Positions 1 through 17,015 of a stretch of 64,000 nt of DNA are shown piece by piece. Source of the DNA: Prochlorococcus sp. AG-311-D23 (GTDB taxonomy: Bacteria > Cyanobacteriota > Cyanobacteriia > PCC-6307 > Cyanobiaceae). The position numbers and the translations under genes were made by a program. The stretch's first letter is position 1. Every line of letters begins with the position of its first letter. The stretch spans positions 1-64,000 of the forward strand of contig QBVH01000006.1 of NCBI GenBank assembly GCA_003284445.1. Direction: 5' to 3'. The notes below the pieces were generated by a model, which saw only the letters and a program-made list of their open reading frames with translations, searched no databases and was not told the origin of the DNA.

Positions 1-1004
1 TCCTGACGGTCAGTAACCATTACCAATGTTGGATTCTTTAGACGTGGGTCAGTGAGCAACTTCCCTGCCAAACATGCCATCTCGATGCTCTTACCAGCAC
101 CTTGGGTATGCCACACAACCCCACCTTTTCTATCTCCATTGGGTTTACTTGCTTCCACAACTCTTTCGACTGCTGTTCTTACTGCATGGAATTGGTGATA
201 AGCAGCAATCTTTTTGATGATCTCTCCATCATCTTCAAAAAGACAATAAGATCGAATGAAATCAAGTAATCGCTTTTTATCAAATAATCCACGAAGAAGA
301 GTCTCTAACTCTCTAAATTTTCCTAATGGATCTAAATTTTGCTCCTGCTCAATAACTCTCCATTGTTGAAAACGTTCTTGAGATGCAGAAAGAGAACCAA
401 CTTTTGCATAAGTACCATCGCTAATTACTAAAAGAACATTTGGAGTAAATAAGTCTGGAATATTATTCTTATAAGTTTGAAGTTGATTGAATGCTGCCCA
501 TATATCTGCCTTCTCATCAATAGGATTTTTGAGTTCAATCACTGCTATAGGTAGACCATTAATATATACGACTACATCAGGAATTCGAGTTCGCTTAGGA
601 CCAAATACTTTCAATTGATTGACGACTAACCAATCATTTGAAGAAGGATCTTCAAAATCAATAATCTTGAGGCGAATACCTACCTCTTGATCTCCATCCA
701 AATATGAGATTGGTAGACCAGTCGTGATCCATTGATGAAACTGCCTGTTAGAAGACAATAGTCCAGGGATATTTGGATTCGTAAGTTGAAGAACTGCTGA
801 CTCGATCGTTACTTGTGGAACTTCTGGATTGAGTTTTTTTAGTACTGACCGAAGACGGTCTATGAGGATGACTTCTCGATAGTCTTTACGTTCTGGTGAT
901 TTACCATCTGGAGCAAGATCTGGACCATGAACAAACGAATACCCAATCTCTTTGAACCACTCCAAAGACATCATCTCAAGTTCTTCTTCGGTCATGTATG
1001 CCAT
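1..1004 (-). CDS. hsdR: Type I restriction enzyme R subunit, N-terminal part (cut by window edge)
   Basis: The motor and nuclease subunit of a type I restriction-modification complex; it cuts unmodified DNA after ATP-driven translocation. About 334 N-terminal residues are visible and the rest lies left of the window. The nuclease domain shows a PD-(D/E)xK pattern (P142-D143, then E157-L-K159). The first helicase motif, TQGAGKS, is at residues 300-306 and the start of motif Ia (VTDRQD) is at the edge. The start ATG shares one base with the hsdS stop codon, so translation is probably coupled. What is visible is intact. Confidence 0.93.
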   Translation of the reverse strand, partial: MAYMTEEELEMMSLEWFKEIGYSFVHGPDLAPDGKSPERKDYREVILIDRLRSVLKKLNPEVPQVTIESAVLQLTNPNIPGLLSSNRQFHQWITTGLPISYLDGDQEVGIRLKIIDFEDPSSNDWLVVNQLKVFGPKRTRIPDVVVYINGLPIAVIELKNPIDEKADIWAAFNQLQTYKNNIPDLFTPNVLLVISDGTYAKVGSLSASQERFQQWRVIEQEQNLDPLGKFRELETLLRGLFDKKRLLDFIRSYCLFEDDGEIIKKIAAYHQFHAVRTAVERVVEASKPNGDRKGGVVWHTQGAGKSIEMACLAGKLLTDPRLKNPTLVMVTDRQ

Positions 1005-2308
1005 TAGATCCCAACCTCCTCAAGCATCTTTTCAGCATCAGGAATTTTTAGTTGACCTGAGATAAGTTTTGGTAGTAAAGCATCTCTGACAGAAGACAAA
1101 CTAATGGACTGCTCAGAATTGATTCTAATTTTATCCATCATTGGAGAAACGATTTCCCCGAAGATTTGTACTAAAGGTAGTTGTGGGATCGGTAGTAAGA
1201 ACTCACACATTTGATTCCAACTTGTACGAGGCATTCTCGTTCCTGAAGACAAGGCAACAGTAAAATCAATAAAAGGATTGCTTGCGAGTAAAAAACAAAT
1301 AAATCCTCTACATAATTTGAATTTCTCTCTTACAACAACAATGTCAGTGGAGCAAACACCGTCAAACTGGGCAAAACCAGTTTTTTTGAAGTAAGGACGA
1401 AGTTTTCCGTAAAGGATATCTCCTTTCTTGAATACATTTTTATTACTGGCAAGATTCTCTGCCGTACTTGAATCGGTTAGAGCAATACTCTTTCTTGGCA
1501 TATGCTCTAAACCGATATAGCGATCAGAAGAATTCATCTCAAAAGGTTTTGCTTTCTCTTTTGGATTCAGTGCTATTTGATCAATATTTCCAAGTTTCCA
1601 CCCACTTGGAGTCTCACCTAATTCAGAATCTTCAAATGAGTTTGGAAACAACTTACTGATTTCATCAGGTAATAAAGTTTTTCGTCCTTCTGCTTTTGCT
1701 CTTACTGGATCGAAATCAATAAACCAAGACTTGAAAAGTGCCTTAGCGATTCCTTCAAGAGTTTCATTCGTTCTTGTGTTGAGTTCAATCTTTTCGTCAA
1801 AAGTTCCGAGAATATGAGCGATTGCTTTTTGTATTTTTATTGGAGGCAGATCAAACTCATACTTTGCTAAATCTCCAACCTTCATATTCAACTGAACAGA
1901 TGTTCCACCTGAAATTGCATTTATGTAGTTGATAAAAGAAGAGGATCTAAATCTATAAAACAAAAACTTTGGATCAATCAAACCTTTTTTTACTCTCAAT
2001 CTTGCAAGTCCATTATTGAAAACAGCATTTAGATCTTTTTTGACTAGATAATTGATTCCTGTAGAGCATGTTCTTGCCATAATGATTTCACCTTTCCGAA
2101 GTTTATAATTTTGATAATCTGAATCTTTTACCTCTGTAAAACCCCAATTAGATATAGACTTATTTTGTGAAACATCTTGAATTCGGAGACATTTTATTGG
2201 AGTAGGATATGAAACGATAGGAGCACGTCTTATTGCATCAAGACCTGTGTTGATGCTTTCAACAACATCTTCTAATTTGACTTCCCTCCAATCAGAAATC
2301 ATCACCAA
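1004..2308 (-). CDS. hsdS: Type I restriction-modification specificity subunit S
   Basis: DNA-recognition subunit of the type I system, 434 aa. It has the usual two target-recognition domains, each followed by a conserved helical spacer; the first ends near residue 165-200 (LPPIKIQKAIAHIL, then the long helix with GIAKALFKSWFIDFDP), and the second ends with LPIPQLPLVQIFGEIV and a C-terminal helix. The start overlaps the end of hsdM by 17 bp and the stop overlaps the hsdR start, so M-S-R form one operon. Recognition sequence cannot be read from the protein. No inverted partial hsdS copy that would suggest shuffling is seen in the window. Confidence 0.93.
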   Translation of the reverse strand: MVMISDWREVKLEDVVESINTGLDAIRRAPIVSYPTPIKCLRIQDVSQNKSISNWGFTEVKDSDYQNYKLRKGEIIMARTCSTGINYLVKKDLNAVFNNGLARLRVKKGLIDPKFLFYRFRSSSFINYINAISGGTSVQLNMKVGDLAKYEFDLPPIKIQKAIAHILGTFDEKIELNTRTNETLEGIAKALFKSWFIDFDPVRAKAEGRKTLLPDEISKLFPNSFEDSELGETPSGWKLGNIDQIALNPKEKAKPFEMNSSDRYIGLEHMPRKSIALTDSSTAENLASNKNVFKKGDILYGKLRPYFKKTGFAQFDGVCSTDIVVVREKFKLCRGFICFLLASNPFIDFTVALSSGTRMPRTSWNQMCEFLLPIPQLPLVQIFGEIVSPMMDKIRINSEQSISLSSVRDALLPKLISGQLKIPDAEKMLEEVGI

Positions 2309-3875
2309 TCCTCTTCAAGTTTTCAGCAATTTGCTGGTCTAACATCACCCCTTCTTCCTGTTGGAACTTGAGTAAAGAAGTAAGTCTTTCCATCTTCTCA
2401 TCAAAAGGTTCACCATCATCCTCTTCTTCTGGTGCTCCTACATAACGCCCAGGAGTCAGGACAAAACTATTTTTTTCAATCTCATTCAAATTTGCGTTAT
2501 GGCAGAAACCAGCAACATCCTGATAATCTTTTTCATTTCGCCAAGAATGAACAGTATCAGCAATTTTGCAGATATCTTCATCAGTAAGAACTTTTTCTTT
2601 TCTGGAGACCATCACGCCCATTTGCCGACCATCGATGAATAAAGTTTCACCTCTTCTATCTCTTCCTCTTTGAGTTTTATCATTACTCAAAAACCATAAG
2701 CAAACAGGAATCGGAGTATTTACGAACAACTGTCCAGGTAAAGCAACCATTACTTCAACGACATCACCTCGTACCATCGCTTCACGAATCTTTCCTTCAC
2801 CAGAGGTGGTGGAACTCATTGATCCATTTGCCAGCACCACACCTGCTTGACCACCTGGTCGAAGTTTCCAAAGCATGTGTTGCAACCATGCAAAGTTGGC
2901 ATTTCCTACTGGTGGTCTTCCATAAACCCAACGAGGATTACTGTCGTATTTCTCTCCACCCCAATCCGAAATATTGAATGGTGGATTAGCAAGTATGTAA
3001 TCAAACTTCTGATCAGGATGTTGATCACGAGCAAAGGTATCAGCATGTCCTTCTCCAAGATTTGCAGCAAATCCACGGATCGCTAGGTTCATTGTTGCCA
3101 AACGCCACGTAGTGGGATTGCTCTCTTGTCCAAAGATAGAAATATCATCTCTTCTTCCCCCATGTGCTTGAACAAATCTTTCACTTTGAACAAACATTCC
3201 ACCTGAACCACAACATGGGTCATAAACACGACCTCCATCTGGTGCTAACACAGCAACTAAAGTTTTGACTATATGAGCAGGTGTATAAAACTGCCCACCC
3301 TTCTTGCCTTCAGCACTGGCAAATTGACCTAAGAAATATTCATAAACTTCACCCAATACGTCTCCTGAATTTCTATCTTCAGCGAACCCAATAGTGGAAA
3401 TCAGATCTACCAATTCACCCATTCGACCTGGTTCCAATTGAGCAGCACCAAATCGTTTATCTAACTTCCCTCGAAGAATTGAATTCTCGTTTTCAATCGC
3501 AACCAATGCTTTATCAATTAGTTGTCCAATCTCAGGTTGCTTTGCCTGATTTCTGAGAGATTCCCAACGTGCTTCAGCAGGAACCCAAAAAACATTTTCT
3601 TGAGTGTAGTAATCGCGATCTTCTAATGCCTCTTGGTGGTCTGAAGAGTTATCACCAAGGTAATAGTCTGAGTCTGAATTACTCACCATTTCCAAAACCT
3701 TCTTCTGCTGCTCAACAAATGTGTCAGAAATATATTTGAGAAAAATCAACCCCAGAACAAGATGCTTATACTCAGCAGCATCCATCTGTGCACGTAGTTT
3801 ATCTGCACTTGCCCAGAGAACCGCTTTGAAATCTTTAGCAGGTGCTGCTTTCTTTTTATTACCTTTGACTGCCAA
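2292..3875 (-). CDS. hsdM: Type I restriction-modification methyltransferase subunit M
   Basis: N6-adenine methyltransferase subunit of the type I system, 527 aa, full length for the family. An N-terminal helical domain (ADKLRAQMDAAEYKHLVLGL) precedes the Rossmann methyltransferase domain with the AdoMet motif VYDPCCGSGGMF in the middle and the catalytic NPPF motif after it. It is first in the hsdM-hsdS-hsdR operon. The 180 bp upstream separate it from the divergent serine recombinase. It can methylate with HsdS alone and protects the host from the nuclease. Confidence 0.95.
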   Translation of the reverse strand: MAVKGNKKKAAPAKDFKAVLWASADKLRAQMDAAEYKHLVLGLIFLKYISDTFVEQQKKVLEMVSNSDSDYYLGDNSSDHQEALEDRDYYTQENVFWVPAEARWESLRNQAKQPEIGQLIDKALVAIENENSILRGKLDKRFGAAQLEPGRMGELVDLISTIGFAEDRNSGDVLGEVYEYFLGQFASAEGKKGGQFYTPAHIVKTLVAVLAPDGGRVYDPCCGSGGMFVQSERFVQAHGGRRDDISIFGQESNPTTWRLATMNLAIRGFAANLGEGHADTFARDQHPDQKFDYILANPPFNISDWGGEKYDSNPRWVYGRPPVGNANFAWLQHMLWKLRPGGQAGVVLANGSMSSTTSGEGKIREAMVRGDVVEVMVALPGQLFVNTPIPVCLWFLSNDKTQRGRDRRGETLFIDGRQMGVMVSRKEKVLTDEDICKIADTVHSWRNEKDYQDVAGFCHNANLNEIEKNSFVLTPGRYVGAPEEEDDGEPFDEKMERLTSLLKFQQEEGVMLDQQIAENLKRIGDDF

Positions 3876-4096
3876 AAACTTTCTTTTTGAATTTGTTGTC
3901 GACTTGTATTATGCCTCAGTTTGGAAAATCATTTTTTACAAAAAAATATACGTAATAGAAGTGATTTGAATTCTTAGTCATGCTACAGAAAACCTAGGGA
4001 TGAGACATCAGTTGCAAAAATGATAAACACTGGGATCTTGCTACTACAGAAAGGGTGATTCATTGCTATACTTTCGGTAGCAGTCTTTCAGTAGCG

Positions 4097-4675
4097 ATGA
4101 CATCTAGATCTATCGGTTACAGCAGAAAATCAACCTCATCACAGACAAATGATCCTGATGTAGAAGCACTCAAAGCAAATGGTTGTCATCAGATATTTCA
4201 GGAGAAGATCAGCAGCAGAGTCAAAGCAAAAGATCGCCCTGAATTACAAGCAGCACTCAACTGTTTGATCGAAGGAGATTGTTTAGTAGTTACGTCTTTA
4301 TCTCGTCTTGCTCGGACTCAAAGTGAATGTATTGAGATACTTCACTCTCTTCAGGAGCGAGGGATCTTTATCAAATCAATTGATGGATTACTCGATACTC
4401 AAGCGAATAGCAAACTTGCACCATTGATGATTGGACTTCTTACAGGACTCAATGAAATAGAAAGAGATCTCATAAGAGAGAGGACGCAAGACTCAATCAA
4501 TCACCGAAGAAAGACTGGTGGAAATTTAGGGGGTAGACCAAAGACAAGTGATAAGAGAGCAGACTTAGTTTTGTCTCTTCGTGATCAAGGTGATTCTTAT
4601 AGGACTATCAGAGATAAAACTCAGATGGGATATTCGACTATCAGAAGAATTATTGTCGCAGCAGATAAGGTCTAA
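4097..4675 (+). CDS. Serine recombinase of the resolvase/invertase type
   Basis: Small serine site-specific recombinase, 192 aa from this start. The N-terminal catalytic domain shows the family signature IGYSRKST (the serine of RKS is the nucleophile) and SRLART, the arginine-bearing loop. A long E helix (LNEIERDLIRERT) and a C-terminal helix-turn-helix (GDSYRTIRDKTQMGYSTIRRI) follow, as in Tn3 resolvases and DNA invertases and unlike IS607 TnpA, which has the helix-turn-helix first. I chose the ATG directly before the catalytic domain; an upstream in-frame ATG at 4055 adds 14 unconserved residues and crosses an imperfect inverted repeat (about 4039-4082) that could be its own binding site. 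It is divergent from hsdM. Confidence 0.88.
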   Translation: MTSRSIGYSRKSTSSQTNDPDVEALKANGCHQIFQEKISSRVKAKDRPELQAALNCLIEGDCLVVTSLSRLARTQSECIEILHSLQERGIFIKSIDGLLDTQANSKLAPLMIGLLTGLNEIERDLIRERTQDSINHRRKTGGNLGGRPKTSDKRADLVLSLRDQGDSYRTIRDKTQMGYSTIRRIIVAADKV

Positions 4676-4833
4676 TCCAATCCATCAAGCACATCTTTCA
4701 TTACTCGACACCACTCTCTAAAAGTAAGTAACTTACCTGTCCGATGATTCCTTCTTATTGCTAGTAGTGAATCTTCCAACCCCTCATAGAGATCATCGGT
4801 AGTTGGACTTCCTGAGTCGTTGGAGTCTTTCAT
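4672..4833 (-). CDS. Tiny protein, homologous to the 51-aa protein at 10718-10873
   Basis: A 53-aa reading frame below the usual length cut-off. Its C-terminal half (HRTGKLLTFREWCRVMKDVL, then DGLD) matches the C-terminal half of the 51-aa protein at 10718-10873 (YREGKLMSFKNWIKVMDELL, then DDLG): same spacing, shared G-K-L, F, W, V-M, L-D and L. Both begin M-K-D. The start overlaps the preceding ribbon-helix-helix gene by 41 bp and the stop overlaps the end of the convergent recombinase by 3 bp. Similarity between two separate islands is the main evidence that it is a real gene. Function unknown. Confidence 0.65.
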   Translation of the reverse strand: MKDSNDSGSPTTDDLYEGLEDSLLAIRRNHRTGKLLTFREWCRVMKDVLDGLD

Positions 4834-4936
4834 TGATTGCATCTAAAACGAACTCATCAGGTTTCTGGGTATATGGCATCTTCGTTATTGCTTGCTTGAT
4901 CTTGCTACCCAAGTCATAAGGGATATTCATTTGCAT
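4793..4936 (-). CDS. Small ribbon-helix-helix-like protein
   Basis: A 47-aa protein from the ATG at 4936. A short N-terminal strand (MNIPYDLG), a helix (SKIKQAITKM), a turn and a second helix (KPDEFVLDAINERLQRLRK) fit the fold of small CopG/Arc-type DNA-binding proteins. It starts 4 bp after the stop of the upstream 67-aa gene, so they look translationally coupled. A longer frame runs upstream to 5068 but would overlap that neighbour. By analogy with such proteins on mobile elements it may be a repressor or an antitoxin; this is inference from predicted fold only. Confidence 0.5.
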   Translation of the reverse strand: MQMNIPYDLGSKIKQAITKMPYTQKPDEFVLDAINERLQRLRKSNYR

Positions 4937-4940
4937 AGTT

Positions 4941-5144
4941 TTACTCCGTATAAAAAGCAGCATCAGGATATTGTCCTGTGCGGTTGATGATGTATTGCAA
5001 CGCTTGAGCACCGTCATAGAAAACCTGTGACTGTGGTATTCGTTTCTCTCGTGCAATTCTCTCGACAATTTCCTGTCGAGATTTGTTGTGCTTTGCAGTG
5101 TGAATGCACACTTGAGAATTCACTCTAATTTTTGTTTGAGTCAT
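4941..5144 (-). CDS. Small basic hypothetical protein
   Basis: A 67-aa protein of unknown function. The first half is basic (SRQEIVERIAREKRIPQSQV) and could be a helix-turn-helix or a ribbon-helix-helix; the second half (YDGAQALQYIINRTGQYPDA) looks like an amphipathic helix. It lies 30 bp downstream of the HUH-type Rep-like gene and 4 bp upstream of the 47-aa gene, in the same direction, so the four minus-strand genes from 5972 to 4672 look like one transcription unit. A role in copy control or regulation of the Rep-like protein is possible but unsupported by sequence similarity I can recognise. Confidence 0.5.
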   Translation of the reverse strand: MTQTKIRVNSQVCIHTAKHNKSRQEIVERIAREKRIPQSQVFYDGAQALQYIINRTGQYPDAAFYTE

Positions 5145-5174
5145 TGCTGAAAGTTATTGGGTTTGAATATTGAT

Positions 5175-5972
5175 TTAGATATGACTATTTATTTTCGGGA
5201 GACCTCTGAGTTTGGACATTGATCTTCTATCGATCTGTTTATCCATCTTTTGATCATCAGTTATTTTCTTCGTGACATATGCCACCAGACCTTTCCATCC
5301 ATAGAAACCATCAAAATGACATTCGTCATTCGCATATAACCAATGCACTCCAGACTTACCCTTTGGAAAGTGTTTATAACCTGAGTAATGAGTCATGTGA
5401 TTCATCCACTCCCAAGGATTCCTAATCGCATACTCAATCAACTCAGCATGAAACTTGGGGTCTTGTAATTGACGAGGACTCAATCTTTCCTGACCACCTG
5501 TAACCTCTTTCACTACATCTTTGACTGGGTAAGTAAGAGTATTTTTATTGATCACTCGATCTATGGGAAGCATCGAAAACAAGATGTGAATATGAAAGGT
5601 TTCATAACCAGATGACTTATCTCGCTCATAAAAAATCAAATGAGGAGATCCCCAATGATGCTTGTATCTTGGGTTGTATCTATTCTCAAGTGCTTTATCC
5701 ATTGAGAATGCTAAGTCTTGACATTGATGATGCTTGAGATGTTTGTCAGGTCGAATAGTCAACATCCCGAAAGGGAGGAGATCCTTGTCTTGGATCTCCC
5801 TAATAAGATTTTCCCGAAGTTGACCCTGTTGATGAATCTTCTCTTCAGGTAAACCTTCTCGCTGTTTGTTGATACAGAGAATCGACTGAGGATCATCTTT
5901 TAGAGGTGAGTCAAAAGTTGATCCTGAATAAGATTTACTTGCAAGATGTCTCCGAAAAGCAGAGGCAGTCAT
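5175..5972 (-). CDS. HUH endonuclease / rolling-circle Rep-like protein
   Basis: A 265-aa protein from the ATG at 5972; a TTG at 6008 would add 12 residues. It carries the three motifs of HUH single-strand nucleases in order and with plausible spacing: a hydrophobic strand FGMLTIRP (residues 68-75, Rep motif 1), H127-I-H129 within YETFHIHILFSM (the metal-binding HUH motif) and Y232-V-T-K235 (the catalytic tyrosine motif YxxK) in GLVAYVTKKI. Proteins of this class nick one strand to start rolling-circle replication or transfer. It leads a run of tiny minus-strand genes beside a serine recombinase and a type I RM system. The closest relatives are not recognisable to me, and metal-binding motifs by themselves do not prove the activity. 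Confidence 0.5.
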   Translation of the reverse strand: MTASAFRRHLASKSYSGSTFDSPLKDDPQSILCINKQREGLPEEKIHQQGQLRENLIREIQDKDLLPFGMLTIRPDKHLKHHQCQDLAFSMDKALENRYNPRYKHHWGSPHLIFYERDKSSGYETFHIHILFSMLPIDRVINKNTLTYPVKDVVKEVTGGQERLSPRQLQDPKFHAELIEYAIRNPWEWMNHMTHYSGYKHFPKGKSGVHWLYANDECHFDGFYGWKGLVAYVTKKITDDQKMDKQIDRRSMSKLRGLPKINSHI

Positions 5973-6415
5973 AAGACATAAGGGGGTTATAGTTATAAAC
6001 AGGCACAAGAATCTCTTTACATAGGGAATTCCTACGACCCACTAAAGGGGGAGAGATATTAGATCAACTGATCGCAAACAATATGCTCTTTCAGTCAGGT
6101 ATTTCCAGATACGTCTATATAGGAATACATATAGTATTTATAAAAACAAATATTTGAGTCGATAGTTACCCGTCTTAGATAACACACTCAACTATGTTTA
6201 TTTTACTATTAGTCACCTATTTGGAATATCAAATAGATGCTTCCGCTTTTATATAAAAAAGAGGTGTATCTATTGCGGAGGACATACAGAAGTGTCCTAT
6301 GCCTTGGGTCAATTATAAGGCAATATTAGGTGGAAATCAAGCATGACCAACTCGTGACCGAAGCATATGCGTCCCTCAAAAAGCAGTCATATCAATAAAT
6401 CTCACACTACGTTGT
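5973..6415. other. Gene-free stretch between the Rep-like gene and the element boundary
   Basis: No convincing reading frame. It contains an AT-rich part and a short hairpin, AGGACA (6279-6284) with TGTCCT (6293-6298) around an 8-base loop, beside a G-rich run. It ends at the left copy of the attachment repeat. Such a stretch upstream of a Rep-like gene could hold its promoter and a replication or nick site, but nothing proves this. Confidence 0.4.
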
Positions 6416-6430
6416 GTAATCGGCATTGAT
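6416..6430. repeat. Attachment site, left copy (distal argJ end)
   Basis: The 15-bp core repeat. Read on the minus strand it gives I-N-A-D-Y followed directly by T-T-stop (to 6407), which is an alternative end for argJ. It is therefore the argJ tail displaced by the element, or the tail carried by another element further left. Confidence 0.85.
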
Positions 6431-6499
6431 GCTAACCTTTAGGGTGTTTATTACTACTCAGGCATCAAACCCTCTAGTATCACTCACCTCATATTTTCA

Positions 6500-6526
6500 A
6501 TAATAATCACACAATAATCACACTGC
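6500..6526 (+). repeat. Integrase arm-site repeat, left copy (27 bp)
   Basis: Identical over 27 bp to 12324-12350, in the same orientation. Each copy is itself two units of AATAATCACAC followed by TGC. A further single unit with the same TGC end is at 6534-6547. They lie about 70 bp from the left core site, the right place for integrase arm binding. Confidence 0.75.
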
Positions 6527-6734
6527 CTCACAGAATAATCACACTGCTGACTACACACCTTTTCAATGTAGTGGTGGTGGAGGTTTTCATGGTTAGTAAT
6601 AGTAAAATAATCACAAACCAATCACAATCTATGTACCTGTTAGTATAAAGAATTCCCCTATATCATACCTGCAAAGATAGTGCAAGTTGAAGTGTAATCT
6701 CTTGAAACTATTCTACTATAAAAACTGATATCAA

Positions 6735-6747
6735 CTGGTACCAGGTA
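6735..6747 (+). promoter_or_regulatory. TGGTACCAGGTA motif, copy 1
   Basis: A 10-bp perfect palindrome CTGGTACCAG extended to TGGTACCAGGTA (6736-6747). The 12-base form recurs at 10699-10710 and inverted at 9306-9317, always between genes of this element. It is a candidate operator for an element-encoded regulator. Confidence 0.5.
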
Positions 6748-6773
6748 AATTACATAGTTATAACTTAATTCCT

Positions 6774-6803
6774 TACCTGATATTTTATGTAAAACATCAG
6801 GTA
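6774..6803. promoter_or_regulatory. 30-bp imperfect palindrome upstream of the small recombinase gene
   Basis: Arms TACCTGAT (6774-6781) and ATCAGGTA (6796-6803) frame a centre that is itself nearly symmetric; 26 of 30 positions match their reverse complement. The site is 75 bp upstream of the gene at 6879. Length and symmetry fit a dimeric repressor site; a transcript hairpin is less likely because no T-run follows. Confidence 0.5.
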
Positions 6804-6878
6804 TGATAGGTGTAATTAAAGGTTGAGTGGTCGTTACACCTCAATCATTGAGTTGAATCTATTTGAGAACCCTACATC

Positions 6879-7490
6879 ATGAGTAAATCCAATAGGAGTG
6901 GTAAATCTACCTGCCTCACTAAAACACAACTTGAAGAGTTTCTATCCAATCTTCCAGTGAAATTCTCATTACTAGCAGAGACAATGTATTTTTCTGCAGG
7001 AAGAGTAGGTGAGATATCATCATTGAAAGTTCGCAACATCAACTTTCAGGAGGGGTTAATCATTCTGGAGAGGAGTAGTACCAAATGTAATGAGACAAGA
7101 CAGATTCCTATACCTATGAGGTTGTTAGATGACTTGAAGGATTGGATACTAGCTAATTCACTACAACCAAATCATTATATTTTCTTCACTCAAAGTAGGA
7201 ATACTAAGTATACGGTTGGTACAAAGAAACTTTCCATACAATCTATTGATGAATACTTCAGGAAAGTATTTGATTGGATAGATGTACCAGGTGCATCAAC
7301 CCATTCATTCAGAAGAACAAGATTAACTCACCTATTACATATGAATTGGAATTGTAGAGAAATCATGGATATATCAGGTCATAAAAATCTACTATCTCTT
7401 CAACAATATCTGGATAGTGATAAAGCTACTACCTTTAATAAGTATAGATCCTTGATTGAAAAGGATCATAGTACCATTCATGGAGGTTAG
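6879..7490 (+). CDS. Minimal tyrosine recombinase (catalytic domain only)
   Basis: A 203-aa protein made almost entirely of the catalytic domain of the tyrosine recombinase family. All active-site residues can be seen: R42 in AGRVGEI, K69 in the strand RSSTK, H142-S-F-R145, H168 in SGHKN and Y177. The N-terminal core-binding and arm-binding domains of normal integrases are missing, so it is much shorter than XerC/D (about 300 aa). It has a complete catalytic set, in contrast to the large integrase at 10927. It may act as a resolvase, invertase or partner of that integrase. Two palindromes precede it, and the 80-aa gene follows after 5 bp. Confidence 0.85.
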   Translation: MSKSNRSGKSTCLTKTQLEEFLSNLPVKFSLLAETMYFSAGRVGEISSLKVRNINFQEGLIILERSSTKCNETRQIPIPMRLLDDLKDWILANSLQPNHYIFFTQSRNTKYTVGTKKLSIQSIDEYFRKVFDWIDVPGASTHSFRRTRLTHLLHMNWNCREIMDISGHKNLLSLQQYLDSDKATTFNKYRSLIEKDHSTIHGG

Positions 7491-7495
7491 GTACT

Positions 7496-7738
7496 ATGAA
7501 AAAGACTGAATGGGATGATTCTAATTGGCGTGAAGAGTATCTGAGTATGGTTGGTACAGATTCAATGAGAGAAAAACTGCTTAAAGAAGGTGCTAAAAGT
7601 CTTAGTCAATCATGGTTATTACAGGCAATGCATGGAGATTGGATGAAGATGAAGGGATATAGTTATCCTGAACCTCCTGACTGTTCTTCATCACTACAAG
7701 AATGGGAGAAAAGTATAAAGAATATTAAGCGGTCATGA
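7496..7738 (+). CDS. Hypothetical protein in the argJ element
   Basis: An 80-aa protein of unknown function, rich in tryptophan (W6, W11, W40, W49, W69) and charged residues. It contains no membrane segment or metal motif. A GGAGG site inside the end of the upstream recombinase gene lies about 8 bases before its ATG, and the gap to that gene is only 5 bp, so the two are probably translated from one message. It might be a partner or directionality factor of the recombinase; this rests on position only. Confidence 0.65.
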   Translation: MKKTEWDDSNWREEYLSMVGTDSMREKLLKEGAKSLSQSWLLQAMHGDWMKMKGYSYPEPPDCSSSLQEWEKSIKNIKRS

Positions 7739-7797
7739 AATAGTTTTCACTACCACCACTATGTGGCTACTATGCGGTTAATAGGAGGAGATTCCTG

Positions 7798-9300
7798 ATG
7801 ACTGCATCAATGAAGGTTGTAGATGTTCCTGTAGATGATGTAGTAGTTAAACTTAGATTGAGACAACCATGTAATGATAAGGTAAATGAAATTGCAGAAT
7901 CTATATCACAGATAGGATTAGTTAATCCAATCACCATTGATAAGAATAATAATTTACTCTGCGGATATCATAGGTACTTAAGTTATAAACAATTAGGTTA
8001 TAATACTATTCCTTCTATCATCAAAGATGTTAACGATAACTTTAGTGAGTTAGTTGAAGTTGATGAGAATCTCAAGAGGAATGAGTTAAATCATATAGAA
8101 GCTGCAGAACATATTGTAAGGAGAGAAGAGTTGTTGAAGGATTTAGGTATTGTTTATAAAGCAGGTGATAACAAAAGTAGCATTAGTGAAGATAAACTTA
8201 CTATGAAGGATATTGCTGAAGGTATTGGTTTATCAAAGCGATCTTATCAACAGAGGAAACAAGTAGCTAGTCTTCACCCTGAAGTTAAAGACTTATTAGT
8301 TGGTACAACCTATGCAGATAATCTTGTTGATTTAGTGAGATTATCATCTGAGTCTGATGATATACAGAAGTTGGTATGTAAATTACTCATCACTGGTAAA
8401 TGTAAAACATGGAAGATGGCTTTCTATAATGCTAAGTTGAATGATTTTAAGTTAAAGAGACAGAGTAGTTTAGATTTCAATTGCAAGGATCGTTGGGGTG
8501 GATATGCAAAGAGTGTGATGAAGTTTAATAGAACAGATGATGACTTAAAGAAGGTATGTGATTTAGTCAATCATGAGGAGGATTTAAGAGTCCAGAAAGG
8601 AAGTCTGAGATTTGGTGAAACACCTATCAAACTTCACCAGATGAATCCTCAACATGCGAAGTTTAGTATTGATTATTTTACTAATGAAGGTGATGTTATC
8701 CTTGATCCTTTTAACGGGCGTGGTACCACTGGTATTACATCACTACACCTCAATAGAAGATTCATAGGATATGAAATTAACCCAATTAGTTATAAGAAGA
8801 CTATTGAGGTAGTAAAGAATAACTGCAATGCTACTGAGGATGAGTTTAAGTTAATTGAAGGTTGTGGTTGTGAGATGAAAGAGTTTGAGGGTAAGTCTGA
8901 ATTCATTGATGCTGTATTTTCATCACCACCTTATTATCTTCAAGCAGAACCTTACTCAACAGATCCTAGAGATTTATGCAATATGAATGTTGAGGAGTTT
9001 GATAATAAGATAGATGTGATGTTTAAGAATCTATCCAGAGTAATCAAGAAGAGTAATTATAAAGAGAAGGTATTTCACCCCATCATGATGGTGATTGGTA
9101 CAGCAAGAGATGCAGAAAATGGAATACTAGACATGCAATATTCATTTCAATCACTAGCAAAGAAACATGGATTGACTCTATGGGATTCTATGTATGTTGA
9201 GTTAAACAATCCATTCCTAGTATGTTCTATTCAGAGGAATTATGAATTCAGATTTACTCACAAGAGTCATGAGACACAACTAACATGGGTGAAGTTTTAG
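7798..9300 (+). CDS. ParB-like domain fused to a DNA methyltransferase
   Basis: A 500-aa two-part protein. Residues 1 to about 110 are a ParB/Srx-like domain with the GYHR box (56-59) and the ENLKRNELNHIEAA box (90-103). A helix-turn-helix follows (KDIAEGIGLSKRSYQQRK, about 137-154). The C-terminal half is an amino-methyltransferase with the AdoMet loop DPFNGRGTTG (303-312) and the catalytic SSPPYY (375-380), the N4-cytosine/N6-adenine type. A strong ribosome site (AGGAGGAG) precedes the ATG. ParB-like domains here are CTP-binding or nuclease-like; the fusion suggests a sequence-directed modification enzyme for the element, without any restriction partner in the element. Anti-restriction against the host's or neighbour's enzymes and a role in gene control are both possible. 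Confidence 0.85.
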   Translation: MTASMKVVDVPVDDVVVKLRLRQPCNDKVNEIAESISQIGLVNPITIDKNNNLLCGYHRYLSYKQLGYNTIPSIIKDVNDNFSELVEVDENLKRNELNHIEAAEHIVRREELLKDLGIVYKAGDNKSSISEDKLTMKDIAEGIGLSKRSYQQRKQVASLHPEVKDLLVGTTYADNLVDLVRLSSESDDIQKLVCKLLITGKCKTWKMAFYNAKLNDFKLKRQSSLDFNCKDRWGGYAKSVMKFNRTDDDLKKVCDLVNHEEDLRVQKGSLRFGETPIKLHQMNPQHAKFSIDYFTNEGDVILDPFNGRGTTGITSLHLNRRFIGYEINPISYKKTIEVVKNNCNATEDEFKLIEGCGCEMKEFEGKSEFIDAVFSSPPYYLQAEPYSTDPRDLCNMNVEEFDNKIDVMFKNLSRVIKKSNYKEKVFHPIMMVIGTARDAENGILDMQYSFQSLAKKHGLTLWDSMYVELNNPFLVCSIQRNYEFRFTHKSHETQLTWVKF

Positions 9301-9317
9301 TTAAGTACCTGGTACCA
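9301..9317. repeat. 17-bp inverted repeat, copy 1 (contains the GGTACC motif)
   Basis: TTAAGTACCTGGTACCA begins one base after the ParB-methyltransferase stop. Its exact reverse complement is at 10699-10715, about 1.4 kb away, framing the accessory genes between. Includes an inverted copy of the 12-base motif found at 6736. Confidence 0.6.
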
Positions 9318-9443
9318 TAAGTTAACGGTATATTAAAAAAGGTAAGTATCCTAATCTATAAAGTCTTGCTCTTGAGTGATAAAAATTTCCCCATATAAAA
9401 TTTCCCCTATAAGGTTGTGCTACCCTAGAGATGAAGTATCTAC

Positions 9444-9635
9444 ATGAAGATGAAATTAGATCATGATGAAACTATTAACCTAATAGAGCATTTACAGATG
9501 TGGATGGAGGTAGAGTTAGAAGATGAGGACGATAAGTTTAGTTATTGGGATAACATACTGCTGAAGTTATATTCACACCTAGATAGAGTCAAGACTACTG
9601 AGTCTGAGACTGACTCTTCACCTTCCTATTCTTAA
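9444..9635 (+). CDS. Small acidic hypothetical protein
   Basis: A 63-aa protein with a strongly acidic middle (EVELEDEDDKF) and a predicted amphipathic N-terminal helix (DETINLIEHLQMWM). Its 3' end overlaps the convergent zinc-ribbon gene by 41 bp. There is no clear ribosome site. It could be a small DNA-mimic or regulatory protein, but the composition is the only hint. I rate it as probable because the frame is open and starts in a natural gap after a promoter-like AT-rich stretch. Confidence 0.45.
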   Translation: MKMKLDHDETINLIEHLQMWMEVELEDEDDKFSYWDNILLKLYSHLDRVKTTESETDSSPSYS

Positions 9636-10059
9636 TAGGATTCCATCCATATGGTTGTACCTTAGTCCATCTAGCATTTCTCCATCTGTTCTTTATATCA
9701 TCACTACCATAGTACATAATCAATTCATGCAGAAACATAGTGTTTCTACCATTAGGATACTTACAATCATTATTAGGGCAGAGTATAGAGTAGGTATTAT
9801 GTTTAGTGTACGGTGTTATAAACCCACTCCTAGTCTTACATGAAGGGCATATACATTTATGTGAAGGATTACCTTTAACCTTGTAGTTGTGAATCTTCCC
9901 CTCTAATGCAGCTACTACCTCCTTGTAGAAGGGTTCTTCAATAAATATATCTGTGTGGAATCTATATCCTTTATGTGTAATTGATTGCATCAAGTCTTCA
10001 TGGGTATTACACCATGTGTGTTTATACATGTGATTCATAGTATTAACTACTGGTATCAA
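9595..10059 (-). CDS. Zinc-ribbon protein of the argJ element
   Basis: A 154-aa protein. A zinc-ribbon is visible in the middle: C71-P-S-C74 and, 19 residues later, C94 and C99 (LCPNNDCKYPNG), followed by a helix (NTMFLHELIMYYG). The ends are basic (NPIKNRKVKSQSQTQ). Such ribbons bind DNA or RNA or act as the zinc module of primases and transcription factors; none of these can be assigned. It is divergent from the 90-aa gene across a 190-bp AT-rich region with two palindromes. It is the only minus-strand gene in the element besides the integrase. Confidence 0.7.
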   Translation of the reverse strand: MIPVVNTMNHMYKHTWCNTHEDLMQSITHKGYRFHTDIFIEEPFYKEVVAALEGKIHNYKVKGNPSHKCICPSCKTRSGFITPYTKHNTYSILCPNNDCKYPNGRNTMFLHELIMYYGSDDIKNRWRNARWTKVQPYGWNPIKNRKVKSQSQTQ

Positions 10060-10167
10060 CTTTCAATAGGTTAATTATAACATATTCATTACAATATGTA
10101 AAGAATACTATAGAGATACTCTATAACTTTTATACATAGTATTGAAGATTCATAATTACCTATTAGA

Positions 10168-10181
10168 AACCCTTAAGGGTT
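10168..10181. promoter_or_regulatory. 14-bp perfect palindrome
   Basis: AACCCTTAAGGGTT, followed within 8 bases by a second CCTAAGGG. It lies between the divergent genes at 10059 and 10252. Confidence 0.4.
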
Positions 10182-10213
10182 GAATCCTAAGGGATTGGTT
10201 AGAGACTTACCAT

Positions 10214-10231
10214 ACTATTTATATAAATAGT
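10214..10231. promoter_or_regulatory. 18-bp perfect palindrome before the 90-aa gene
   Basis: ACTATTTATATAAATAGT, centred about 30 bases upstream of the ATG at 10252. It overlaps where a promoter -10 region would be and is a candidate operator for a dimeric repressor; being AT-rich, it could also arise by chance. Confidence 0.4.
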
Positions 10232-10251
10232 CTATAGTTATCTAATTATAA

Positions 10252-10524
10252 ATGGTACTCCTTAATGTAGCTAAGAGAGAGAATACAGAAGAGAAGGATA
10301 TTACTCAAGATGAAACTATATATCATTACCATAAATCTTCTATAAGGAAACTAATGACTAATTACTCAAGACAATACCCAAAGGTTAGAAATGTATCATA
10401 TGCAGAATATGAGGTTGATAGGTTAACGATGATGGAGGATAAGTTGATGAGACATCTAGGTAAAAACTATAGTCAATTACATAAGGATTTGGTTAGGAAA
10501 GAATTCACATCAGTATGCATGTAG
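10252..10524 (+). CDS. Hypothetical protein, first of three tiny genes
   Basis: A 90-aa charged protein without cysteine motif or membrane segment. The C-terminal half looks helical (LTMMEDKLMRHLGKNYSQLHKDLVRKEF). It is the first gene of a cluster with the 54-aa and 51-aa genes, the gap to the next being 9 bp. The promoter region contains an 18-bp palindrome. I do not recognise the family and saw no similarity to the 67-aa gene that occupies the same place in the neighbouring island. Confidence 0.55.
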   Translation: MVLLNVAKRENTEEKDITQDETIYHYHKSSIRKLMTNYSRQYPKVRNVSYAEYEVDRLTMMEDKLMRHLGKNYSQLHKDLVRKEFTSVCM

Positions 10525-10533
10525 GTATCAACA

Positions 10534-10698
10534 ATGGATAGTTATCAAGTCAAACTCACTACAGTACAGAAGACACAACTAACTCATATATTAGCTGCTA
10601 GTAGATTTACATCAGTACAATCTTACATTGACTATCATATAGAGAAGGATACTAAGACTCTTAAACAGAAACCTAATAAGGAGTTGATATTTAAGTAA
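10534..10698 (+). CDS. Small ribbon-helix-helix-like protein (54 aa)
   Basis: A 54-aa frame too short for usual gene finding. A strand (YQVKLTTV), a helix (KTQLTHILAASR), a turn with S/T and a second helix (VQSYIDYHIEKDTKTLKQ) give the layout of a CopG/Arc-type ribbon-helix-helix protein. The 47-aa protein at 4793-4936 has the same layout, and in both islands the next gene downstream encodes the GKL..F..W family protein. The stop lies directly next to the 17-bp inverted repeat, which could be its own operator. Confidence 0.5.
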   Translation: MDSYQVKLTTVQKTQLTHILAASRFTSVQSYIDYHIEKDTKTLKQKPNKELIFK

Positions 10699-10715
10699 TG
10701 GTACCAGGTACTTAA
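10699..10715. repeat. 17-bp inverted repeat, copy 2
   Basis: Exact reverse complement of 9301-9317. It lies between the 54-aa and 51-aa genes, three bases upstream of the ATG at 10718, where a bound protein would affect translation start or transcription of that gene. Confidence 0.6.
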
Positions 10716-10717
10716 CC

Positions 10718-10873
10718 ATGAAGGATTTTAATGAGTTTCAATCTAATACTCACCTCAATGAGGATATGAATAAGTTCGTATTAAATTTCAAGAAGTATTA
10801 TAGAGAAGGTAAGTTAATGAGTTTTAAGAATTGGATTAAGGTGATGGATGAATTATTAGATGACTTAGGTTAA
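10718..10873 (+). CDS. Tiny protein (51 aa), homologous to the 53-aa protein at 4672-4833
   Basis: A 51-aa frame missed by length cut-offs. Its C-terminal half, with G-K-L, then F, W, V-M and L-D-x-L at the same spacing, matches the protein at 4672-4833 (see there). The first half differs apart from the M-K-D start. It follows the ribbon-helix-helix-like gene by 19 bp. The conserved half is probably one or two helices with aromatic contacts, as for a small partner-binding protein. Repetition of the pair in two islands supports a functional module. Confidence 0.65.
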   Translation: MKDFNEFQSNTHLNEDMNKFVLNFKKYYREGKLMSFKNWIKVMDELLDDLG

Positions 10874-10926
10874 CGGTAGTGAAAATGTTTTCATGACCTA
10901 GTAGATGGATATAATAACAACTTATG

Positions 10927-12306
10927 CTATGAGTCTTCAACACTATCTAATGCATCCTCTATCTCAATCAATACCTCATTCTGCTTAGTCTGAATCTTAT
11001 TGTAGAAGGTTCTATTCTTACTTAATAACTCCCAAGTAGCTTTTGATTCTGATTCATGATGAAAATATACATCTTCAATATAGCGTAATCCTGTACCACA
11101 ATTCCTTGATAGTTGTAGTAGTGGTACAGATCTAGATACTGCAAATGATATACCAGTATGTCTGAAGGAATACCAAGTTATATTTTTCATATTCCAATAC
11201 CTATCAGAACATAAGTCTTTAATTTCTTTCCATCCTCTGTTCCAGGTACCATCTCCTAATGCTTCATCAGGATGATTAAATTTATGGAATACTAACTGAC
11301 TTCTATACTCAGGAGGTACATGAGGAAAATCACTTCCTCTATGTCTAGGTATCCCACACAACTCTCTAACATCATTGAATCTCTTAGTAGTTGGTGATTG
11401 TACTGTTCGTGATACTCCAGTCTTAGTATTCTCCTTCCTAATTCTTATCAAATGCCCTACATCTTTATCATCCTTAGTGAGATTAGTATTAGATTCTAAA
11501 TCCATCCATCTCAATCCTTTTAACTCACCCTTGCGTAAACATGAGTTAGACATTATCAATATACTTTGGTACAACAGCTTCCTATTAAATTCTTGAGTAG
11601 GAGTTAGGTTATTAGAATTACACCACTTCCTAATAGTATTGATTGTCTGCATGTACTCTCTAGGGTTAAGATAGTCTCTCCTTAATTGTCTTATAGACTC
11701 ACTCTTCAATGACTTAAATTCAGGAGAGAGACTAATGTATCCTTTATCTTTTAGATACTCAAAGTATGCTTTGATTGTTGTTAATTCTGTAAGAATAGTA
11801 TGGTTAGTCTTTGGTGGTTTAGGATTGTATTCTTTATCAATTCTTGTTCTCCATAGAGGGTAATCCTTCAACTTAACATAATCAATATCTTCAAGTTTAA
11901 TACTCCTGTTGTGATAGAAACGCTTCAATAGTGTTAGGTGATGAGACTTAATCCTGAAGGTTTCTTTGGTAATGAATCCTGATCTGTTGTAGTCAGATAT
12001 TCTCTTAGACTCCTCCTCCAGAAAGTCATCTATGAAGTCAAACATCTTCTTCACTCTCCTTGCCTTCAATCCTTGCTTCAGGCGAGTCATAACCTCCAAC
12101 TTCCTATCCAATGCAAACTGAATAGCTAAATCCTTATCAGTTTCACCAGTAGATTTTCTCTCACTACCTTCACCATCAATCTTCAGGAAATACTGCCATG
12201 TAGATGATCTAGGACGCTTGTAGATATAGCAGTCTTCTCTATCAGGTAATACCAGAATCTTATCTTTAACCCACTTACCTTTACCAACTAAGGGCATTAG
12301 AGACAC
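10927..12306 (-). CDS. int: Tyrosine integrase of the argJ element
   Basis: A 459-aa phage-type tyrosine recombinase: an N-terminal arm-binding/AP2-like part (CYIYKRPRSSTWQYFLKI, about 26-43), a core-binding helical domain (about 85-200) and the catalytic domain. Seen catalytic residues are R258 (CLRKGEL), K295 (ENTKTG), R382 and Y414. The first histidine is replaced by Y379 (YSFRHTG), and the second position appears to be C403 in SRNCGTGLRYIEDVY, a form I know from other cyanobacterial and phage integrases of this style. It lies 120 bp from the right attachment core and reads away from argJ's end, the usual layout. It should insert and remove the element at argJ. Confidence 0.9.
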   Translation of the reverse strand: MSLMPLVGKGKWVKDKILVLPDREDCYIYKRPRSSTWQYFLKIDGEGSERKSTGETDKDLAIQFALDRKLEVMTRLKQGLKARRVKKMFDFIDDFLEEESKRISDYNRSGFITKETFRIKSHHLTLLKRFYHNRSIKLEDIDYVKLKDYPLWRTRIDKEYNPKPPKTNHTILTELTTIKAYFEYLKDKGYISLSPEFKSLKSESIRQLRRDYLNPREYMQTINTIRKWCNSNNLTPTQEFNRKLLYQSILIMSNSCLRKGELKGLRWMDLESNTNLTKDDKDVGHLIRIRKENTKTGVSRTVQSPTTKRFNDVRELCGIPRHRGSDFPHVPPEYRSQLVFHKFNHPDEALGDGTWNRGWKEIKDLCSDRYWNMKNITWYSFRHTGISFAVSRSVPLLQLSRNCGTGLRYIEDVYFHHESESKATWELLSKNRTFYNKIQTKQNEVLIEIEDALDSVEDS

Positions 12307-12323
12307 CTGTGGTTATGGTTAGT

Positions 12324-12350
12324 ATAATAATCACACAATAATCACACTGC
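12324..12350 (+). repeat. Integrase arm-site repeat, right copy (27 bp)
   Basis: Identical to 6500-6526. It lies 76 bp from the right core, just upstream of the integrase start, so binding here could also repress the integrase promoter. A single unit, ATAATCACACTG, is at 12405-12416, next to the core. The inverse of the left-end motif AGGGTGTTTA is at 12376-12385. Confidence 0.75.
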
Positions 12351-12417
12351 AACTAGGTTAGTATTATACACTCTCTAAACACCCTGCTATCACTGGTATA
12401 TGCTATAATCACACTGA

Positions 12418-13680
12418 CTATGTATGGTAATCGGCATTGATTCGGACATATTGATCAGATAAGTCACATCCCCAAGAAGTGGCCGAGCCTATTCCTTTCC
12501 CTATCCTTAATCTAATTCTGATAAGATCATCGATCAAATATTTGCCTGTTAATCTTGCTTTCATAAACTTGCTCACAATTTGTCTATCAAAGTCCAAAGG
12601 TGTGCCATTAGAAAATATTTCATAAGGTCCAATCCATAATTTGACGTCATTAAAAGTAAAAGAAATGCCTGCACGACCAAGTGCAGCAATAATTCTTCCC
12701 CAATTAGGATCGGAACCATTGACTGCAGTTTTAACCAAAGAAGATGACGCAATTGTACGAGCTATTAGACGAGCATCTAAATCACTTGGAGCACCTTCAA
12801 CCTTTATCTCAATCAAACAATTGGCCCCTTCTCCATCCCGTGCAATAGATTTAGCCAAGTGTTGGGCAGTTAAATGCAGTCCCTCTTCAAGAATTGATAA
12901 ATATCTTGGATCTAATTCTTCCCCAGAAGAAAAAGCTAAAAAAGTATCGTTTGTACTCGTATCTCCATCAACTGTAATGGAATTAAAAGATGATTCTGCA
13001 ACTCGCTTTATCATCTCAGACCATAAACTATAATTTACGCCTACATCACACGTAATATAACTCAACATTGTTGCCATTGAAGGATGAATCATACCTGAAC
13101 CTTTAGCCATTCCTCCAATAGATATTCGTCTTCCTCCTAAAACCGCTTGATATGCAATTTGCTTTACTTGAAGATCGGTTGTCAAAATTGCATTCGCCGC
13201 GTCCAGAGATGCATCCTTATCTAAACTATTTATAAGGCGATCCAAGTGACTATTAACCCTTTCCACAGGTATTGGTTCACCAATAACACCCGTTGAACAT
13301 ATCAAAACTTCTTCATCAGATAATCCCAGGCGTTGAGCAAGTTCATGTGTGATAATTTCACTATCAATTTTGCCTCTACTACCTGTACAAGCATTTGCAT
13401 GTCCAGAGTTAATAACTACAGCTCGTATTTTTCCATCAGATGCCCTAAGTCGATTAATACATAGCTCCACACAATAAGCACGAGTCACAGATTGAGTAAA
13501 TGTCCCACTACAACAAGCCCCATCAGGCGCAAATAGCAAAGCAAGATCTTTCTTTCCAGAAGGCTTCAATCCTGCAGAAATGCCAGATACTAAAAAACCG
13601 TCCGGGGTAGTAATACCCCCAGAGATTGGAGACCATACAGAAGATGTCAAAGGACTCAAATTCAGAAGAGCATTTTTCAC
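12418..13680 (-). CDS. argJ: Glutamate N-acetyltransferase / amino-acid acetyltransferase
   Basis: Bifunctional ArgJ, 420 aa. It moves the acetyl group from acetylornithine to glutamate and can acetylate glutamate from acetyl-CoA in the arginine pathway. The self-cleavage site is visible as HPSMATML, where T204 becomes the new N-terminus of the beta chain and the nucleophile. The gene is complete but its last two codons and stop come from the integrated element; C-terminal I-N-A-D-Y-H-T differs from the displaced tail I-N-A-D-Y-T-T. The start is 15 bp from the divergent coaE. Confidence 0.96.
   Translation of the reverse strand: MKNALLNLSPLTSSVWSPISGGITTPDGFLVSGISAGLKPSGKKDLALLFAPDGACCSGTFTQSVTRAYCVELCINRLRASDGKIRAVVINSGHANACTGSRGKIDSEIITHELAQRLGLSDEEVLICSTGVIGEPIPVERVNSHLDRLINSLDKDASLDAANAILTTDLQVKQIAYQAVLGGRRISIGGMAKGSGMIHPSMATMLSYITCDVGVNYSLWSEMIKRVAESSFNSITVDGDTSTNDTFLAFSSGEELDPRYLSILEEGLHLTAQHLAKSIARDGEGANCLIEIKVEGAPSDLDARLIARTIASSSLVKTAVNGSDPNWGRIIAALGRAGISFTFNDVKLWIGPYEIFSNGTPLDFDRQIVSKFMKARLTGKYLIDDLIRIRLRIGKGIGSATSWGCDLSDQYVRINADYHT
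12427..12441. repeat. Attachment site, right copy (inside argJ)
   Basis: The second copy of the 15-bp core. It is codons I-N-A-D-Y of argJ on the minus strand; the last two residues (H-T) and the stop are supplied by the element. Confidence 0.85.
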
Positions 13681-15911: not shown

Positions 15912-17015
15912 ATGGGTGTCTTAAATGAAAAACCATTGTTAATCCTCGGAGGAGGATTAATGGGTCTTGCAATAGCCCATGAACTTGCTAGAAGAGGCAA
16001 ACGAGTAGAAGTTTTAAGTAGAAGCAGACGTGAAGCAGCAGGCTTTGTTGCTGCTGGAATGCTCGCCCCTCACGCTGAAGGGCTTCAAGGTAATCTTTTA
16101 AATCTTGGTCAAATTAGTCTTCAGAGACACCCAACATGGATAGAAAACATAGAGAAAAAAAGCAAAATGTCATGTGGTCTCAAAACTTGCGGGATTGTTG
16201 TCCCCTTTGAAAGCCACAAAGACTGTGAATCCTATCCAACATATAACTTTGGTAAAAAGCTAAGCAGAAATGAGCTCCTTCAAGAAGTTCCGGGACTCTC
16301 AGAAAAATGGAAATTAGGTTTACTTTTTAAGCAAGACGGTCAAATCGATAATCGAAGACTTTTAATGAGAGCACTTGAAAAAGCTTGCTTTGAATTAGGT
16401 GTTCACTTTCAAGAAGGAGTTGAAGTGGTTGAAATAATGAAAAATCTAAACAAATTTAATGGGGTCAAAATTAAAGACATTAATGGAAATATCAATCATT
16501 TAAAAAGTGAAGAGGCAGTTCTCTGCTGTGGAGCCTGGAGCAAACAAATTTTTAAAACATTGCCTATTTTTCCTGTTAAAGGCCAGATGCTATCTATTCA
16601 GGGTCCAAAACAGATTCTTAAAAGAATTGTTTTTGGACCTGGCATTTACTTAGTTCCGAGAGATGACGGTCTAATAATCGTAGGGGCAACTAGTGAGCCT
16701 GAAGCAGGCTTCCAGACAGGACTCACTCCAAGTGGGCAAAGCGAGCTTCAAAAAGGAATTCAATCTCTTATTCCTGAACTAAACAAACTACCTCATATGG
16801 AGAGATGGTGGGGTTTTCGTCCATGCACACCTGACGAAGGACCTTTACTGGGGATGTCATCAATTAATGGACTCTGGCTTGCTACGGGGCATCATCGCAA
16901 TGGAGTTCTATTGGCAGCGATAACTTCAGCATTAATTGGAAAGTCAATTTGCTCCAACCCTTTAAGTAATGAGGAAGATAGTTTGTTGTCCCATTTCAGA
17001 TGGGACAGATTTTAA
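15912..17015 (+). CDS. thiO: Glycine oxidase ThiO
   Basis: FAD-dependent oxidase that turns glycine to dehydroglycine for the thiazole part of thiamine. 367 aa; the dinucleotide motif GGGLMGLAIAHELARRG is at the start and the C-terminal half has the family GRWWGFRPCTPDEGPLLG-type segment (here ERWWGFRPCTPDEGPLLG). thiL of the same pathway is at 46909, far away. In some cyanobacteria thiO is fused to thiG; here it is alone. Confidence 0.88.
   Translation: MGVLNEKPLLILGGGLMGLAIAHELARRGKRVEVLSRSRREAAGFVAAGMLAPHAEGLQGNLLNLGQISLQRHPTWIENIEKKSKMSCGLKTCGIVVPFESHKDCESYPTYNFGKKLSRNELLQEVPGLSEKWKLGLLFKQDGQIDNRRLLMRALEKACFELGVHFQEGVEVVEIMKNLNKFNGVKIKDINGNINHLKSEEAVLCCGAWSKQIFKTLPIFPVKGQMLSIQGPKQILKRIVFGPGIYLVPRDDGLIIVGATSEPEAGFQTGLTPSGQSELQKGIQSLIPELNKLPHMERWWGFRPCTPDEGPLLGMSSINGLWLATGHHRNGVLLAAITSALIGKSICSNPLSNEEDSLLSHFRWDRF

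Follow-up and report, generated by a model that had tools for sequence, protein, structure and literature searches.

A candidate HUH-type Rep on a mobile island at the argJ 3' end of Prochlorococcus sp. AG-311-D23

Introduction

Genomic islands account for much of the diversity of Prochlorococcus, a genus in which, to our knowledge, almost no plasmids have been described. HUH Reps carried by integrative elements are known from other organisms, and the kind of system considered here is therefore already known. The closest described islands are the picocyanobacterial integrase islands (PMC10187409) and the tycheposons (PMC10872708), which share with the present locus a tyrosine integrase, a small serine recombinase, restriction-modification cargo, integration next to a gene end and a variable content. 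The small serine recombinases found near picocyanobacterial integrases have been proposed to act in resolution (PMC10187409). Here we describe a rep-like gene in a 64,000-nucleotide stretch of Prochlorococcus sp. AG-311-D23 (contig QBVH01000006.1, positions 1 to 64,000), hereafter the window.

Results

A rep-like gene with ordered HUH motifs

The original prediction was of a Rep-like protein bearing an HxH, a YxxK and a motif-1-like strand in the order of rolling-circle initiators, and all three elements are present as described, in an uninterrupted ORF that runs on the minus strand from an ATG at 5972 to a stop at 5175 (a TTG at 6008, upstream of the ATG, would as an alternative start give 277 aa). 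The gene and its motifs are:

5175-5972, minus strand: rep-like gene, candidate Y1-type HUH endonuclease, 265 aa (ORF and one homologue)
5748-5771, minus strand: motif-I-like hydrophobic strand FGMLTIRP, residues 68-75 (from sequence; T72 and P75 conserved; strand at 68-73 in both low-confidence models)
5625-5627, minus strand: E116 in the strand preceding HUH, a candidate third metal ligand (conserved in the homologue)
5586-5594, minus strand: motif II, HIH, residues 127-129, candidate metal ligands
5268-5279, minus strand: motif III, YVTK, Y232-K235, with Y232 as candidate nucleophile

A search of approximately 400 Cyanobiaceae genomes identified, besides the window's own protein, one homologue, from Prochlorococcus AG-412-P08 (contig QCLI01000013, L003 9631-10410, E 7.6e-22, 30-32% identity), and no others emerged when a comparable sample of Cyanobiaceae and of the two genera was searched by profile. 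The two proteins are 32% identical across 226 aligned positions. Only 2 of the 17 histidines of the window protein are conserved, namely H127 and H129 of motif II, together with Y232, K235, E116 and the threonine and proline of motif I, and the GWxGLVxYxTK block surrounding Y232 is well conserved. Because only two rep carriers are known, this conservation evidence comes from a single pair. The sequence of motif I, then HUH, then tyrosine that defines Rep-type members of the HUH superfamily is thus found in the window protein and in its distant homologue, and by likeness to other HUH Reps E116 may be the third metal ligand.

In 50,000 composition-preserving shuffles of the rep-like protein, scored for a hydrophobic strand containing T/S that is followed by HUH and then by YxxK at the observed spacings, the ordered set of three motifs appeared in 0.024% of cases (0.004% for the AG-412-P08 homologue), percentages that are lower bounds on chance because the pattern was defined after the sequence had been inspected. 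HUH...YxxK without motif I arose in 1.9% of shuffles, and HUH and YxxK are therefore insufficient by themselves.

Family and fold comparisons

The rep-like protein matched no family in Pfam, PHROGs or NCBIfam, and no relatives were detected in IMG/VR or, with an E cut-off of 0.1, among phage and plasmid records. The original prediction had proposed looking for homologues on plasmids or phages; none emerged, and the single relative lies on another chromosomal island. Phage matches at E up to 10 were rejected as chance similarity to head, ATPase and capsid genes; a motif-only DNA pattern gave 15 stretches in IMG/VR, none of which was an in-frame HUH protein of the rep-like kind; and weak class- or family-level matches at G530, G446 and G404 were dropped, as they covered fragments only.

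AlphaFold2 models built from one or two sequences reached a pLDDT of 38, too low for judging the fold or the presence of the five-stranded HUH core on which the original prediction hung. Both show a strand at residues 68-73, a helix at 81-98, a strand at 110/112-118, a strand at 125-133 that carries HIH, and a helix with Y232, and this predicted strand-helix-strand-strand(HIH)...helix(Y232) order fits HUH Reps. Fold searches with both models gave no significant match; for the two-sequence model, several of the named viral matches (BFVD) were replication initiators or NS1, all non-significant, and this leaning was given little weight because the single-sequence model lacked it. In hhalign comparisons, Reps of the pC194/pUB110 and microvirus types scored no better than a serine-recombinase control, and sequence and profile similarity place the protein in neither Rep_1 (pC194/pUB110) nor the microvirus Reps. 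The assignment as a Rep-type HUH protein therefore holds in part: motif conservation across a remote relative and the predicted order of secondary structure favor it, but no profile match ties it to a known Rep family. From its sequence, the protein likely performs HUH chemistry and belongs to a family that is, at this level, unclassified.

The rep island at the argJ site

The features surrounding the rep-like gene in the window are:

3-1004, minus strand: hsdR, type I restriction subunit, residues 1-334, truncated by the contig end, with the rest on contig C33
1004-2308, minus strand: hsdS, type I specificity subunit, island cargo (PADLOC 2.2e-98)
2292-3875, minus strand: hsdM, type I methyltransferase, island cargo (PADLOC MTase_I 3.1e-188; 84% DNA identity to an island of genome G033)
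4055-4675, plus strand: small serine recombinase of the resolvase/invertase type (PF00239 1.7e-28; phrog_125 4.1e-43)
4793-4936, minus strand: small ORF of 47 aa, 4 nt past the 67-aa ORF
4941-5144, minus strand: small ORF of 67 aa, 30 nt past rep, no family match
5973-6405: non-coding stretch from rep to the core, possible origin region
6406-6430: att-like core formed by a second copy of the argJ 3' end (INADYTT-stop), which bounds the rep island on the right
6500-6630, plus strand: AATAATCACA repeats, arm-site-like, next to the 6406-6430 core and assigned to the neighboring island (an exact 27-nt copy of the AATAATCACA repeat lies at 12324-12350)

The argJ gene lies at 12418-13680 and its encoded 3' end is INADY-H/T-T-stop. 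Of the island originally drawn at 1-6415, the right edge stands, corresponding to the argJ 3'-end duplicate at 6406-6430, but position 1 is an assembly break and the island appears to continue on contig C33. The genome has one hsdR, and it is divided, with residues 1-334 in the window and 800-1032 on C33, where it is followed by an ORF of 204 aa, then by a tyrosine integrase (1655-3253) and by an argJ-type core at 3371. The C33 integrase matches PF00589 at E 4.1e-5, below the Pfam gathering score, and is related to other argJ-site integrases. From the split single-copy hsdR and the integrase and core on C33 we therefore infer that the rep island extends from the window contig (C6) onto C33 across an unsequenced gap of approximately 1.4 kb. 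Its order would be core, rep, two small ORFs, serine recombinase, hsdM, hsdS, hsdR, ORF, integrase and core, and its length approximately 11.2 kb with the gap counted. Judged as a tycheposon, the element contains a tyrosine recombinase, albeit on the separate contig C33, and is flanked by direct repeats of the target-gene end (6406-6430 and C33:3371); its site is argJ, and no tRNA gene lies within the window. These sequence features, namely duplicated argJ 3' ends, tyrosine integrases, a serine recombinase and restriction cargo, lend strong support to the proposal that the gene sits on a mobile island.

Copies of the argJ 3' end (ATCAATGCCGAYTAY...TAR) occur in the window at 6406-6430 and 12417-12441, on C33 (L109) at 3371 and on C42 (L110) at 1666, with further repeats in L081, L082 and L085-L087, and two or three cores stand in a row downstream of argJ in genomes G020, G011, G033, G002 and G016. 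Downstream of argJ, then, islands have integrated one after another in tandem, and the 6415 edge falls in one of the cores. The core sequences mark the 3' end of this protein-coding gene as an apparent integration hot spot in several genomes of the genus.

Two argJ cores in the window also bound a second island of approximately 6 kb (6431-12417), which encodes a 203-aa integrase C-terminal fragment (6879-7490), a ParB/N4-methyltransferase fusion (7798-9300), a 147-aa orphan protein with zinc-ribbon-like CxxC...CxxxxC cysteines and no family match (9595-10038) and a 456-aa tyrosine integrase (10927-12297). The hsdMSR island of G033 spans 6.4 kb between two argJ cores (10596 and 16969 of L085) and has neither the rep module nor an integrase of its own; it may be a cargo-only island that moves in trans.

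A second rep island in AG-412-P08

The rep of AG-412-P08 sits in an interval of 11.0 kb bounded by a tRNA-Ser gene (L003 5319-5406) and, at 16409-16429, by a degenerate repeat of the 3' end of that gene. The interval also contains an AlpA-like regulator, a Mrr/ResIII restriction helicase and a tyrosine integrase that differs from the one at argJ. By sequence, both rep islands are thus approximately 11 kb long with att-like flanking repeats, a tyrosine integrase and restriction genes. Two small ORFs directly follow rep in both genomes (67 and 47 aa in the window, 59 and 45 aa in AG-412-P08), with no sequence similarity detectable between those of the two islands; the 67-aa product possibly binds DNA, and the 47-aa product looks, by eye, ribbon-helix-helix-like. 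The serine recombinases near the two reps are 63% identical and are sisters in a tree of 26 sequences (99/94 support), with an orientation relative to rep that is convergent in the window versus same-strand in AG-412-P08. A homologous rep was found in none of 20 other Cyanobiaceae serine-recombinase neighborhoods examined. Given the linkage in two genomes, rep, the two small ORFs and the sister recombinases look like one inherited module. BLAST detected no match between the integrases of the two islands, and either the module has therefore moved from one integration system to another along with a change of island, or integrases have been swapped between the islands.

An origin was sought by comparing the two rep islands, and the longest word common to both was 12 nt, a length that shuffled sequences also produce; several short inverted repeats are present, none common to both islands beyond chance. 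In AG-412-P08, two direct copies of a 46-nt repeat (L003 6902-6947 and 8048-8093), 93% identical and 1.1 kb apart, flank two hypothetical genes beside the serine recombinase and are possibly recombination sites. Clusters of TGTTGTGGGAT repeats adjoin degenerate tRNA-Ser 3' ends at L003 16188-16351 and 18055-18093, suggesting a second tandem island there.

Discussion

We consider it somewhat probable that a divergent Y1-type HUH Rep drives rolling-circle copying of an excised, tycheposon-like element of approximately 11 kb at the 3' end of argJ, and that the serine recombinase resolves its multimers. In such a cycle the C33 tyrosine integrase would recombine the argJ-type cores and excise a circle; Rep, holding a metal through H127 and H129 and perhaps E116, would nick one strand at an origin with Y232 as the nucleophile, and rolling-circle replication would begin. 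The small serine recombinase would then turn multimers into monomers, which would reintegrate or exit the cell. Each of these steps, an origin included, is inferred, as is the originally proposed replication or movement of the island via single strands.

Other activities could be imagined for this protein. The HxH/YxxK likeness might be coincidental and the protein some other island product, for example a regulator or a nuclease of unrelated fold, as the lack of profile and confident fold support in the searches run and the 1.9% of shuffles with HUH...YxxK alone would allow. However, an ordered set of three motifs is rare by chance, and the catalytic positions are kept at 32% identity where 15 of 17 histidines are not; we regard coincidence as unlikely. 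An HUH nuclease might also serve as a relaxase or mobilization protein, nicking a transfer origin to let the island exit via the conjugation machinery of another element. Rep-type HUH proteins are able to act in mobilization, and the sequenced parts of the island contain no transfer genes of their own, but Prochlorococcus has no conjugation system that we are aware of. The motifs, moreover, run I, II, III as in plasmid Reps, the replication type, whereas Mob relaxases have the reverse order, III-II-I (PMC5714925), and a mobilization role appears improbable.

An HUH transposase of the IS91 or IS200/IS605 type, moving by single-strand transposition, would share with the window protein the HUH and single tyrosine common to Y1 transposases (PMC5714925). 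Yet the profiles of these transposases in Pfam gave no match at E up to 10, each genome has one rep copy rather than multiple or independently placed ones, and the island has site-specific att-like ends with a tyrosine integrase to serve them, all of which makes a transposase highly improbable. Returning to rolling-circle copying by a Rep, a broader reading that we hold only tentatively, and consider possible rather than probable, is that an undescribed HUH Rep family, two small partners and a serine resolvase constitute a replication module common to Prochlorococcus islands with different integrases and targets, which would enable rolling-circle amplification in a plasmid-poor genus.

If active, the rep-like gene would reveal how such Prochlorococcus islands copy themselves, and the HUH Rep and resolvase together would offer a testable route of spread through excision, rolling-circle amplification, resolution and transfer. 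The argJ 3'-end array serves in addition as a map of island boundaries. Our literature search found no paper joining Prochlorococcus, argJ and islands; the primary tycheposon paper lay outside that search, and novelty is unproven.

Among known replication initiators, the pC194/pUB110-type Reps (Rep_1) resemble the window protein in the I-II-III motif order, the HUH, a single catalytic tyrosine region well beyond it toward the C-terminus and a similar length, but there is no significant sequence or profile similarity, and theirs are plasmid genes whereas the rep-like gene lies on a chromosomal island. Microvirus replication initiators share the HUH and a YVxK-like motif III, and some were among the weak fold matches of one model; however, profile comparison was non-significant, and the sequenced part of the island carries no capsid genes. 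The betapleolipovirus SNJ2 (Rep-Arvir; PMC13107129) is likewise an integrative element with a sequence-orphan Rep, which there copies the excised circle, but it is an archaeal virus with a Rep_trans-related protein, and the likeness drawn here is one of description. The picocyanobacterial integrase islands and tycheposons (PMC10187409, PMC10872708) are, in the available portions of these sources, tRNA-linked and described with no mention of an HUH Rep, whereas the window island occupies the 3' end of argJ and carries a rep-like gene.
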